A stretch of 64,000 nucleotides of DNA from Sphingopyxis sp. OAS728 (lineage in GTDB: Bacteria; Pseudomonadota; Alphaproteobacteria; Sphingomonadales; Sphingomonadaceae), in assembly GCF_014873485.1 (NCBI RefSeq), contig NZ_JADBDT010000001.1, positions 2,418,001-2,482,000 on the forward strand, read 5' to 3'. Position 1 is the first letter of the stretch. The number at the start of each line of letters is the position of its first letter. The position numbers and the translations under genes were made by a program. Of the stretch, positions 8,235 through 59,284 are shown one piece after another. The notes under the pieces are model-generated. The model had not been told where the DNA came from, ran no database searches, and saw only the letters and a program-made list of their open reading frames with translations.

Positions 8235-9831
8235 GGCCCTGAAACCCGATGCGAGCATCGCCGAGCAGGAGGAATCGCCGCTCGTCTGGTCGGCGCGCTG
8301 GTCGCTGACGACGCGCATCCTCGCGGTCAACATCCTCGCCGTCGCGCTGCTCGCGGGCGGCTTTTATTATCTCGACACCTATCGCAGCCGCCTGGTCGAT
8401 ACGCGCATCGACGTGATGAAGGACCAGCTCGCGATGCTCGACAGCGCGCTCGAGGCGGCGCGCCCCGATCAGCGGACGCGCCTGATCGAGGAGTTCGCCG
8501 CCGCGACCGAATCGCGACTGCGCTTCTATGCCGCCGACGGCCATCGCATTTCCGACAGTTTCGAGACTGGTCCCCCGACCTATACGCTGCGCGACCCCGA
8601 CCTGCAGCCGTGGAAACGCGACGCCGCGCGCGCAATGGACCGCGGGATCGACTGGGTCGTCGGCGCGCCGACCTATCCCGAGTTCGAGGAGCCGCGCGTC
8701 GACAATGCGAAGGCGTGGCCCGAAGTCGTCGAGGCGCAAACCAGCGACGTGGCGGCCAGCCGCTTCCGCTACGCCCCCGAACGCACGCCGCTGCTCAGCG
8801 CAGCGCGCGTCGTCGACCTCGAAACGCCGCAAACGGTGCTGATGACGCTCAACGCGCGCGACATTACGCGCACGGTGCGCGCCGAGCGACTGCGCATCGC
8901 GATCGTCGTTGCGATGGTGTTGCTCGCCTCGACGCTATTGTCGCTCTTTCTCGCACGCACGATCGTTCGCCCCTTGCGGCGACTCGCGCGCGCCGCGGTT
9001 CGCGTCCGGCTGGGCCGCGCACGCGAGGTGGTCGTGCCGCGCCTGCCGAGCCGCCGCGACGAGATCGGGACGCTCGCACGCGCATTGAGCGACATGACGC
9101 AGGCGCTGCGCGAACGCATCGACGCGGGCGAGCATTTCGCCGCCGATGTGACGCATGAACTCAAAAATCCGATCGCGTCGGTGCGCTCGGCGATCGAGGG
9201 GCTCGGGCACGTCAAAAGCGACGAGCAGCGCGCGCAGCTTCTCGCAATTGCCGACGAGGATGTCCGCCGCCTCGACCGGCTGGTGAACGACATCAGCGAA
9301 GCGAGCCGCGTCGACGCGCAACTGTCGCGCACCCTGTTCGAACCGATCGACGTCGGCATCATGATCGAATCGATGCTCGCGTCGCGCGCGGCGCGCGTCG
9401 ATGCCGACACGCCGCATCCGCGCGTCGCCTTCGCGCGGCCGCGCAAGGGCACGACCGTCGTGATGGGCGACGGCCACCGGCTCGAACGCGCGATCGACAA
9501 TGTGATCGACAATGCGATCAGCTTCTCGCCCGCCACCGGGCTCGTCTGCATTTCGGCAACGCGGCTGGGCGACGAGGTCCATGTGAAGGTCGACGACGAC
9601 GGCCCCGGGATCGAACCCGAACAGCGCGACGCCATTTTCCGCCGTTTTCATAGCGAACGCCCCGCCGGCGAAGCCTTTGGCCGCCACAGCGGACTCGGCC
9701 TCGCGATCGCGCGAACGATCGTCGAGGGGCATAGCGGGACGATCAACGCCAAGGATCGCGACGACGGCAGAGCCGGCGCCAGCATGCTCATCACCCTTCC
9801 CGCGCGCGAGGGTACGACCGAAACCGGCTGA
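8224..9831 (+). CDS. chvG: sensor histidine kinase ChvG
   Basis: Inner-membrane sensor kinase that phosphorylates ChvI. 535 residues: cytoplasmic N-terminus, first membrane segment about 36-56 ([19 protein letters not shown]), periplasmic sensor about 57-220, second membrane segment ([20 protein letters not shown]) about 223-243, HAMP linker, HisKA with the phospho-acceptor His at about 311 in VTHELKNP, and HATPase with N box ([11 protein letters not shown]), G1 (DDDGPGI) and G2 (HSGLGLAIA). I use the ATG at 8224, overlapping chvI by 11 bases; an in-frame GTG at 8200 is also possible. It is followed after 54 bases by hprK on the same strand, consistent with one transcript from chvI to ptsH. 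Confidence 0.92.
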
Positions 9832-56272: not shown

Positions 56273-56681
56273 CGATGATCCCCTTTTCCCGGTCGCGAAA
56301 TGGCGCCTGGGTCGCGGGGGCATTAGGCGGGCGATATTGCGGCGCTGCGGCGAAGGCGTGACAGGGCGATGACGGAATGAAGAAGGATCAGCGGCAACCG
56401 CGCCGCGCGATCGGCGGGAACCTATTAACATAAATCAGTTTGTGAAATCCTGTCTCCAGATGGAGCATTTTTCGAACACATCAAGTCGAGTTAAAGAAAC
56501 GCCTACAGAAAAATTTTAGTTAACATATCCGCCACCTCTGAAAGGAAATCCGTAGTGATCGGCTGAGTTACTAGTTTACATATCCGGTTAATAACAATTA
56601 ATTTCAACAACAAAGGGAACTTTGTCGCAAGTTCGAGACTCTCAGCGTTGGGACCATACAATGTACGGAAGGGGATATCTC
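56273..56681. promoter_or_regulatory. AT-rich divergent control region
   Basis: 409 bases without a gene between the receptor and the lipoprotein. Bases from about 56420 to 56620 are much richer in A and T than anything else in the window. They hold a direct repeat ACATATCCG (56523-56531 and 56578-56586, each preceded by GTTA/GTTT-like bases), a palindrome CTCCA-GA-TGGAG (56454-56465) and a second, GAACTT-TGTCGC-AAGTTC (56617-56634). Promoters for both divergent genes are expected here. The lipoprotein ribosome site (AAGGGGAT) is at about 56668-56675. Confidence 0.6.
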
Positions 56682-57638
56682 ATGCCTTTGTCCTGTCTTG
56701 AATTCCGCCCAGCCCATCTCATCCTGATCCCGGCCTGCCTTGCGCTCGCCGCGTGCGAATCGTCGGGCAGTTACCGCGTCGGCAGCGTCGGCAGCGGCGG
56801 TGCGACCGGCACCGTCGGTCCGACGGGTGCCACCGGCCCCGCGGGTGCGACCGGCGCCACCGGCCCGGCCGGTCCCGCTGGCCCCGCCGGCAGCGGCCTC
56901 GGCCTTGGCGACGCCGGCGCGCTCGCGGTCGGCGGCCTCGTCGGGCCCAGCGGCGTCGCGGGCACCGGCCTCCTCGCCAACACCGGCGATCCCGCCGCGA
57001 CCAATCCGGTGATCGGCAATGTGCTCGTGAAGACGGGCGGGCTCGTCAATGTTATCGCCGACAAGGGCCTGCTGCTCGCCAGCGCGGTCGACGGCAAGGT
57101 TCCCGGCAACACCAATCTCGTTGGCACCGTCATCGGCGTCGTCAAAAGCACCGGCGTCGCGCTCGTCCAGACCGGCGAGGGCAAGCAATATCTGGTCGAC
57201 GGCCTCGCCGCCGCCCCCGGCCAGCTGGTCACCGCGACGATCGGCAAGGCGACCGCGATCGGCAGCCCGAACGCCTCGCCGCTGATCGGCGCGAGCATCC
57301 TCTCGCCCGGCCAGCAGAACGGCAGCCTGCTGACCGTCGGCGTCGGGTCTAGCGGCCAGCTCGTCACGCTCCAGCCCGGCACCGGCGGCAACCTGCTCGG
57401 CGGCGTCACCGGCGGCCTGACCGGCGGCACGACGGGCGGCACCGTCGGATCGCCCGTCACATTGGTCAGCAACGTGGTCACCACCGCGACCGGCGCACTC
57501 GGTCAGGTCACGAACGGCCTGACCGGCGGCACGACCGACGGCGGCACGGCGGTCGATCCCGTCACCGGCCTCGTTACCGGGGTCACCGGAACCGTCGGGG
57601 GCGTCCTCGGCGGGCTGAAACCGAAAAGCGGCAACTGA
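56682..57638 (+). CDS. collagen-like repeat lipoprotein
   Basis: A 318-residue lipoprotein: signal with lipobox at Cys25 (LALAAC). Residues 40-72 are a run of 11 Gly-X-Y triplets (GATGTVGPTGATGPAG, then GPAGPAGPAG), a collagen-like triple-helix tract. The remaining ~240 residues are low in charge, rich in Gly, Val, Thr and Leu, and contain repeats such as GGVTGGLTGGTTGG, ending VTGTVGGVLGGLKPK. No known enzyme domain. I start it at ATG 56682 with a good AAGGGGAT 6 bases upstream; an upstream TTG (56622) adds a segment that would destroy the lipoprotein signal. It is 11 bases from a TpsB-type transporter gene, so the protein is a candidate cargo or surface partner of it. Confidence 0.75.
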   Translation: MPLSCLEFRPAHLILIPACLALAACESSGSYRVGSVGSGGATGTVGPTGATGPAGATGATGPAGPAGPAGSGLGLGDAGALAVGGLVGPSGVAGTGLLANTGDPAATNPVIGNVLVKTGGLVNVIADKGLLLASAVDGKVPGNTNLVGTVIGVVKSTGVALVQTGEGKQYLVDGLAAAPGQLVTATIGKATAIGSPNASPLIGASILSPGQQNGSLLTVGVGSSGQLVTLQPGTGGNLLGGVTGGLTGGTTGGTVGSPVTLVSNVVTTATGALGQVTNGLTGGTTDGGTAVDPVTGLVTGVTGTVGGVLGGLKPKSGN

Positions 57639-57649
57639 AGCCGCACCCG

Positions 57650-59284
57650 ATGCGCCCATTGCGCAACGCCTGCATCGCGGCGGTGGCGGGAGCCCTGCTC
57701 CTCCCCGCCGCGGCGCTCGCGGCCCAACCGGCGGCGACGCCGCTCGACGGCCGCCCGCCCCTCGCCCCCGATCGCAGTCGCGACCCGCTTCCCGATCCCG
57801 AGGCCAAACCCCTCTCGCTCGGCAAGGTCGAACTTGGCGCACGGCCCGACGTCACCATCCGCGAAATCCGCTTCGTCGGCGCGGGCGTCCCCGCCAATGT
57901 CGGCCGCGCGGCCCAGCGCTTCGTCGGCAAGCCCGCGTCGGCGGGCAATCTCGCGAAGCTCGCCGCCGCGATGACGCGCGCCTATAATCGCTCGAGCGTC
58001 GCGCTTTTCACGCTCGTCATTCCCGAACAGGATTTGTCGGGCGGTGTCGTCACCGTCGCGTCGGCCGAGGGCTATATCGGATCGGTGACGCTGAGCGGCG
58101 AACGCGAGAGCGGCCCCGCCCCCCTCGTCGGCAAGATGGCCCGCAACCTCGTCGGCCAGCGCCCGCTGCCGCGCGCACGCTTCGAACGCACGCTCGGCAA
58201 TATCGCCGACATTCCGGGGGTCACCGTCACCCCGTCGCTCGCGCTCGGCGGCGAGCAGGGCGCGGTCGCGCTCGACCTCGCGCTCGATGCGAAGAAACCC
58301 ACCGTCGGGCTCGGCTTCACCACCCGCACCAGCCAGTTCGTCAATGACGGGATCGTCGAAGCCAACGCGCGCGGCACCAGCCTGCTGCGCAGCGGCGACG
58401 AAACACGGCTAACCGGCGCCGCCGCGGTCAACCTCAAATCCTTGCTCTACATGGCCGCCAGCCACTCGACCCCGCTCGGCGCCGGCGGCACGCGCGCCGA
58501 AATCTCGGCTGCGGCGCTGCGCACGCGTCCCAAAGGGCTCGCGATCGACGGCAAGGCGTGGAGCGCGGGCTTCGGTGTCACCCACCCGCTGATCCGCGCG
58601 ACGCGGCGCAACCTGCTCGCTTCGGTCCGGCTCGACTATCTCGATTCGAAAAATGCGCTCTTCGGCTCGACGATCGCCGCCGAAAAGACATGGACCGCGA
58701 GCGGCAGCCTCGCCTTCCGCCTCAGCGAGGACCGCACGGTGATCGGCGCACGCCTCGGCGGTGCCAAGGGGCTCGATTTCGCCGGCGCACGTGTCGATCC
58801 GGGCGTCGGCGAGGTCGGCTTTGCCTATGCCGACGCGAGCATCGAGGCCAACCAGGCGATCGGCAAGGCGCTGGTCGTCCGCGCCGCCGCGACGGGGCGC
58901 TGGACGCGCGACCGTCTGCCCGCGGCGCAGCGTTTCAGCGTCGGCGGCGCAACCTTCGGCCGCGCCTTCGACGACGGATTGGTCAACGGCGACCGCGGCT
59001 ATGCGACGTTCGGCGAATTTGCGGTGCGCCCCTTGCGCGCCGGCAGGCTGGCGAAGAGCGAGATCTACAGCTTCGTCGATTATGCCGATGTCACCCTGCT
59101 CGCGCGCACCGCGATCCCGAAAACCAATTTCCGGCTCGGCAGCTGGGGCGGCGGGGTGCGGCTATCCTATTCCGAAAATGCGACGATCGGCCTCGAACTC
59201 GCCGACGCGTGGAACCAGTCGGTGCCGGGTTACGATCAGGACTGGCGCGTAGCGCTCAGCTGGAAATTGTCGCTTCGTCCGTGA
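57650..59284 (+). CDS. ShlB/FhaC/HecB-type (TpsB) outer-membrane transporter
   Basis: A 544-residue protein of the two-partner-secretion transporter family: signal peptide about 1-25, short N-terminal Pro-rich linker (26-67), two POTRA domains about 68-143 (VTIREIRFVGAG, AMTRAYNRSSVALFTLVIPEQ) and 144-215, then a 16-strand barrel with the loop-6-like motif NGDRGYATFGEF (family VRGY) and the end WKLSLRP. In known systems it moves an exoprotein TpsA across the outer membrane. No large TpsA gene is in the window; the only candidate cargo is the lipoprotein 11 bases upstream, an unusual combination. It overlaps the hemerythrin gene by 29 bases at its end. Confidence 0.82.
   Translation: MRPLRNACIAAVAGALLLPAAALAAQPAATPLDGRPPLAPDRSRDPLPDPEAKPLSLGKVELGARPDVTIREIRFVGAGVPANVGRAAQRFVGKPASAGNLAKLAAAMTRAYNRSSVALFTLVIPEQDLSGGVVTVASAEGYIGSVTLSGERESGPAPLVGKMARNLVGQRPLPRARFERTLGNIADIPGVTVTPSLALGGEQGAVALDLALDAKKPTVGLGFTTRTSQFVNDGIVEANARGTSLLRSGDETRLTGAAAVNLKSLLYMAASHSTPLGAGGTRAEISAAALRTRPKGLAIDGKAWSAGFGVTHPLIRATRRNLLASVRLDYLDSKNALFGSTIAAEKTWTASGSLAFRLSEDRTVIGARLGGAKGLDFAGARVDPGVGEVGFAYADASIEANQAIGKALVVRAAATGRWTRDRLPAAQRFSVGGATFGRAFDDGLVNGDRGYATFGEFAVRPLRAGRLAKSEIYSFVDYADVTLLARTAIPKTNFRLGSWGGGVRLSYSENATIGLELADAWNQSVPGYDQDWRVALSWKLSLRP

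Follow-up and report, generated by a model that had tools for sequence, protein, structure and literature searches.

The stretch of DNA considered here (hereafter the window) comprises 64,000 nucleotides of the genome of Sphingopyxis sp. OAS728, which amounts to 4.92 Mb in a single contig. A lipoprotein gene (56682..57638, + strand; 318 aa, predicted mature form 294 aa), delimited from the list of open reading frames and from homologues, is followed on the same strand, 11 bp after its stop codon, by the gene of a TpsB-type outer-membrane transporter of 544 aa (57650..59284, +). This arrangement had been noted in the original prediction, and the open reading frames, the Pfam matches and the predicted structure of the transporter all agree with it.

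The unusual AT-rich control region that had been proposed to precede the pair is also present (56420..56681, +), as judged by GC content and by alignment of the upstream regions of relatives. Segment 56432-56640 has 37.8% GC against 65.9% for the window, and among 210-bp stretches taken at steps of 10 just 0.05% have so low a GC content. Of 22 upstream regions compared, from relatives and the window, all contain the block GGAAC (56616-56620) and 19 contain GGGACCA (56650-56656), which is missing in L038, L040 and L047; the blocks are about 30 nt apart, both 5' of the ribosome-binding site, and both are invariant in a 14-row alignment from which these three loci were left out. No consensus RNA structure was supported in this region with 14 of the 22 rows, nor was there any credible Rfam match. 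Further upstream than the two blocks, TAGTTAA-like elements are repeated, which we take to be reminiscent of CtrA half-sites.

The signal peptide of the lipoprotein (56682..56753, +), read from the sequence and aligned in homologues, ends with the lipobox LAA/C (L22-A23-A24-C25). The predicted lipid-acceptor Cys25 opens a tether motif, CESSGxxRVASVG (56754..56792, +), in which C25 is invariant and S27, G29, R32 and G37 are nearly so (at least 90%) in an alignment of 20 diverse sequences; the window's lipoprotein reads CESSGSYRVGSVG here, and the greatest departure, in L093, is CAGDSHLAYGSVG. Residues 34-72 (56781..56897, +) form a Gly-X-X run of 13 triplets in register, a collagen-like stalk, within which the 11 predicted Gly-X-Y triplets fall. 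Shuffling the same protein 20,000 times never produced a run of 13, the shuffle maximum being 10, and the stalk measures 9-15 triplets in 18 members of the Sphingopyxis group. The description of the protein as collagen-like therefore stands in so far as the run exceeds chance, and fails as a defining feature: several genera carry the same lipoprotein with a Gly-rich, non-collagen stalk of plain Gly-Ser/Thr/Asn, and the Pfam Collagen model scores the window's protein at 10.2 bits, far under its cut-off of 27.2. Judging from the alignments, collagen is not the conserved part of this lipoprotein; what is conserved is the tether and a small OB-like core.

Behind the Gly-X-Y run the homologues share a conserved linker, LGxAGALAVGGLVGPxGVAGTGLLANTGDP. 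The core follows at residues about 131-195 (to ~230; 57072..57266, +), where AlphaFold2 predicts a small 5-strand barrel of the OB/SH3-like type, with block means of pLDDT of 76-91 over residues 131-190 and 63 over 191-200; its fold matches are weak. A further segment, PLIGASxLSPxQxxGxLLTVGVxSxGxLV (57279..57371, +), aligns with the lipoproteins of a sister clade in profile-profile comparison, and the remainder (57372..57635, +) is a Gly/Val/Thr-rich low-complexity part modelled with low confidence, the length of which varies among homologues. No beta-barrel is predicted in the lipoprotein (AlphaFold2, of low confidence outside the core), no beta-helix is predicted either, and Pfam finds no TPS domain in it.

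In the transporter, Pfam ShlB is matched at 51.9 bits (cut-off 22.7) and POTRA_2 passes narrowly at 24.6 (cut-off 24); a Pfam scan at E up to 1 yields these two families and no DUF560. Among PDB entries, the family profile matches CdiB (8e-23) and FhaC. The AlphaFold2 model, built from 44 sequences with a mean pLDDT of 81, comprises POTRA 1 (residues 65-140; 57842..58069, +; also supported by Pfam), POTRA 2 (residues 142-214; 58073..58291, +; from the secondary structure of the model) and a predicted 16-strand beta-barrel (residues 218-542; 58301..59275, +), in which 16 long strands were counted. Its best structural match is CdiB (TM-score 0.68, 17% identity), followed by FhaC (0.60), with TamA and BamA ranking just below. 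The motif GRAF (58958..58969, +), with R438 and F440 invariant in 17 sequences, was aligned by eye with what is presumably the position of the L6 VRG[F/Y] motif of FhaC. Residues 1-60 have pLDDT below 50 and no helix is drawn there, so that an N-terminal plug helix H1 of the FhaC type is not visible. By its modelled POTRAs and barrel and its Pfam matches, the protein is a genuine member of the TpsB family.

The close homologues of the pair carry Sphingopyxis names, and 60 genomes of the genus were searched with both the transporter and the lipoprotein profiles, the specific transporter being taken at E<1e-200. It is present in 29 of them; the lipoprotein is present in the identical 29 and in no others, and neither gene is intact in the remaining 31. 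Throughout the 29, the lipoprotein, or its last part at contig breaks, lies directly upstream of the transporter, or of its first part, on the same strand, with 20-98 nt between the profile matches; in four of these genomes (G025, G045, G048 and G058) a gene is broken over contigs. Genome G016 (L086, near 9480-9776) retains the last 99 transporter profile positions only, with an internal TAG, in a neighbourhood with a TonB receptor and a hemerythrin-like frame resembling the flanks of the window's pair, and this 3' remnant is a scar of the loss of the pair. In an rpoB phylogeny covering 54 of the 60 genomes (five of the six dropped had no match at the threshold and one had a short piece; three of the six bear the pair), the pair changes state 11 times, eight of these changes being forced by well-supported branches of a tree whose bootstrap values are not fully settled. 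A sign test on eight independent pairs of genomes gave 8/8 (p 0.0078), with a single presence label standing for the two genes, since they occur in exactly the same genomes of this set. A single deletion removes linked genes together, and joint inheritance alone therefore does not prove function.

The linkage is maintained beyond the genus. Among 396 Sphingomonadales genomes, in which subfamily TpsB places were accepted at E<=1e-140 with at most three candidates scored per genome, there are at least 24 transporter places, 18 in what we call clade I, to which the window's pair belongs, and six in the sister clade (clade II). The lipoprotein is directly upstream in 17 of the 18 clade-I places; in the eighteenth, in G274, only 179 bp separate the profile match from the end of the contig, and another contig of the same genome ends in a fragment of the lipoprotein that has the tether motif. 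A broader lipoprotein profile finds matches in 16 of 298 Sphingomonadaceae genomes, 13 of them with an adjoining TpsB and one being the contig-end fragment of G274, while G296 and G863 match through Gly-X-Y repeats only and have no transporter in the stretch examined. In titled genome records, transporter sequence adjoins the lipoprotein in 22 of 22 loci, which are mostly from Sphingopyxis, some probably from the same genomes as the set of 60, with one from a Parvularculaceae genome and one from Sphingosinicella; the transporter is cut by a contig end in L033 and split into two frames in L039, and the lipoprotein is cut in L044. Sphingobium sp. TomTYG65 also has the pair, with both genes annotated as hypothetical. 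A class-level search of 385 genomes, with up to five candidates scored in each, returned the window's own genome as its sole match.

The flanks of the pair differ by locus (TonB receptor/hemerythrin, groESL/SppA-like, HtpG). In L053, L082, L083 and L084 the pair adjoins groES/groEL-like genes, with an SppA-like frame in L082-L084, as read by eye; these surroundings are unlike those in the window, yet recurrent. In L094 the shortest lipoprotein (~204 aa) and its transporter are followed by genes for a subtilase-family protein and a further protein rich in Gly. Co-occurrence of the two genes in Sphingomonadales is thus upheld by their identical presence in the 60 Sphingopyxis genomes and by 17 of 18 clade-I loci, and the frequent separation in relatives that would have spoken against it was looked for and not found. 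That the two genes act together, as had been supposed, is strongly supported by the sequence comparisons, namely the identical presence, the repeated gain and loss and the adjacency in other genera.

All six clade-II loci (L095-L100) carry, after the TpsB, a frame from one family of 2OG-Fe(II) oxygenases (PF13640 over the cut-off in the two tested, the other four assigned by eye), for which the nearest sequences in the PDB belong to PKHD-type hydroxylases, PiuC for example (E 2e-6); no such oxygenase was seen beside the window's pair. Downstream on the same strand, all six also have a frame that starts in a lipobox-like way and contains 14-35 Gly-X-Y triplets, for the most part GPS, GPT or GPG. 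Its distance from the TpsB is ~0.9 kb in four loci, ~2.7 kb in L098 and ~3.6 kb in L100; in L098 and L099 this frame is cut by a contig end. The C-terminal segments of these proteins and of the window's lipoprotein are related (profile-profile probability 97.8%, E 9.5e-13, with 56 columns aligned and three rows only in one of the profiles), although the order differs, the lipoprotein being upstream of TpsB in clade I and downstream in clade II. In a 48-row transporter tree made by a quick method, in which the deep placement of long branches is unsure, the two clades form one branch (SH-aLRT 99) that excludes all six sampled TpsBs with a large adjacent open frame.

These six (L081, L101, L102, L179, L191 and L192) are among 23 other TpsB loci sampled. 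One of them is the locus of the second TpsB of the window's own genome (L081, G000:C1:3883000-3902000), which is 28% identical to the transporter of the pair over part of its length and is followed after 5 bp by a frame of 2608 aa; this frame has no Pfam match, TPS included, at E<=0.1. The other 17 loci were labelled as having no adjacent TpsA, including L177, where an adjoining frame of 1087 aa was judged antisense, and therefore the lack of such a neighbour is not unique to the clade. Five of the loci (L178, L185, L186, L188 and L195) belong to a distinct TpsB group of sphingomonads, beside which no TpsA was seen on either strand, and their neighbours look by eye like FecR-like proteins and CHASE2-type sensor proteins.

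The original prediction had also stated that no TpsA is encoded in the window, and this holds over the whole genome as far as the TPS-domain model PF05860 can tell, since no match was found at E<=0.001; the test is weak, since PF05860 misses the exoprotein next to the second TpsB. Over the genus, PF05860 has matches in 15 of 60 genomes, with eight places over the cut-off in five genomes, and, by the same weak test, none beside the pair in any of the 60. Three of the five bear the pair (G039, G045 and G057), and there the TPS match is near another TpsB match. In G007, another pair-bearing genome, a weak TPS match (E 9e-4, in a 534-aa frame) is beside no TpsB found. A search of the window's genome with the N-terminal 400 aa of the exoprotein of the second TpsB matches that exoprotein itself only.

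The accepted role of TpsB transporters is to carry large proteins with a TPS domain. In the best reading of the present data, which draws on gene order and homology, the TpsB of the pair would serve a lipoprotein rather than a TPS-domain exoprotein, and the lipoprotein is probably exported by its adjacent transporter, in the place that a TPS-domain TpsA would otherwise take. The two genes would then constitute a dedicated secretion pair. The lipoprotein would cross the inner membrane by Sec, be lipidated on Cys25 and travel to the outer membrane by the Lol route, where the adjacent TpsB may recognise it, probably through its POTRA domains, by the CESSGxxRVASVG tether and/or the OB-like core. 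The barrel would thread the unfolded Gly-rich chain through itself, and the result would be a lipid-tethered fibre, collagen-like or Gly-rich, on the cell surface; we infer from this scheme the direction of transport and the leaflet that holds the lipid. In its widest form, to which we give an even chance, the proposal is that this TpsB branch is a lipoprotein exporter, a route besides Slam and the lipidated autotransporters, whose cargo would be a short lipid-anchored Gly-rich fibre with a new signal (the tether or the OB-like core) replacing the TPS domain; the cargo of the sister clade would be a long collagen-like fibre that the co-encoded 2OG-Fe(II), prolyl-hydroxylase-like, enzyme modifies.

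Export is favoured by the joint inheritance and the adjacency described above, by the common branch of the two clades in the transporter tree and by the second TpsB of the same genome, which has its own adjacent frame of 2608 aa. Several observations count against it: the OB-like core is predicted to be folded, which poses a difficulty for passage through a pore; the plug helix of FhaC is not seen in the transporter model; in clade II the lipoprotein is downstream and in two loci 2.7-3.6 kb away; and 17 of the 23 other sampled TpsB loci were likewise labelled as having no adjacent TpsA. The failure of PF05860 on the exoprotein of the second TpsB leaves room for an unlinked, diverged substrate, and this, together with the solitary weak TPS match in G007, speaks both against export of the lipoprotein and for its serving, in the periplasm or on the inner leaflet, as an accessory (receptor, plug or chaperone) to a TpsB that exports a different, unlinked exoprotein. 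We regard such a role as unlikely, and it is the main rival because Omp85 relatives use lipoprotein partners and because the searches for a different substrate have little power. BamA, a related Omp85 protein, usually has lipoproteins as partners, according to the available part of PMC2635482, and the lipoprotein of the pair could act as BamB-E do for BamA, with the predicted OB-like core as a binding domain. However, no third gene travelling with the pair was seen in the loci read by eye, the flanks differ, the query with the other exoprotein found itself only, and an accessory would, we infer, have no obvious need for long stalks, whether collagen or Gly-Ser, that change in composition.

It is more improbable still that the TpsB acts like an Omp85 insertase and builds the lipoprotein into a multimeric structure of the outer membrane, or that it retains the lipoprotein at the membrane and does not export it. 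The fold common to TpsB and Omp85 proteins, the place of TamA and BamA in the structure ranking and the Gly/Val/Thr-rich C-terminal part of the lipoprotein, which has no confident structure, are compatible with that role, whereas the closest structures are the translocases CdiB and FhaC, the model consists of two POTRAs and a barrel, and no barrel is predicted in the lipoprotein (at low confidence outside its core). As to the two genes being chance neighbours that hitchhike as an operon, a single deletion can indeed remove linked genes together, as in G016, where only the 3' transporter remnant is left. We nevertheless consider this highly implausible, and the genomes searched already contradict it: the two genes stay side by side in several genera and in a Parvularculaceae genome, amid differing neighbours, and the sister clade of transporters retains a related lipoprotein at a different place in the locus.

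With two-partner secretion (type Vb: FhaC/FHA, CdiB/CdiA, HMW1B/HMW1) the pair shares the two-gene unit, two POTRAs and a predicted 16-strand barrel, but the partner here is a lipoprotein of 318 aa with neither a detectable TPS domain nor a predicted beta-helix, and the pair is not a standard system of this kind because no TPS-domain partner was found. In autotransporters of the NalP/SphB1 type the passenger and the barrel are on one polypeptide, unlike in the two-gene pair. Even the 96-kDa HxuA is called 'relatively small' among TpsAs in the accessible portion of PMC5422565. The lipidated autotransporters NalP and SphB1 (type Va) indicate that lipobox-bearing passengers of type V systems exist, the final place of the lipid being undetermined in what is available of PMC8151025. 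In Slam (type XI) systems a dedicated outer-membrane protein brings lipoproteins to the surface (PMC5472700, as seen in part), and the pair may work likewise; it is not a Slam because the transporter has no DUF560 match, and Slam cargo was compared with the lipoprotein through Pfam and PDB sequence searches only. Collagen-like lipoproteins of the Burkholderia cepacia complex likewise combine a lipobox with a collagen-like part, but they carry Pfam PF15984, which has no match in the window's lipoprotein, and no TpsB neighbour is named for them in the portion of PMC10224339 that was available.

No description of a TpsB with a lipoprotein partner appeared among the matches listed from the open-access literature, seen in part, most subscription papers being outside it. 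The pairing may indicate a route by which lipoproteins reach the cell surface that has not been described before. As a small two-gene system in an environmental genus, it would allow direct tests of whether a TpsB can transport a lipidated chain, of the signal that takes the place of the TPS domain and of how collagen-like fibres reach the Gram-negative surface. Two-partner systems with a third partner, HMW1C, also include a modifying enzyme, in that case a glycosyltransferase (according to the available part of PMC3983070), whereas the enzyme of the sister clade is a 2OG-Fe(II) oxygenase nearest to PKHD-type hydroxylases. With this co-encoded hydroxylase-like enzyme, clade II would be a natural place to look for a possible modified bacterial collagen with its own exporter. 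In one of its loci (L096) the clade-II genes are followed by an EAL protein.
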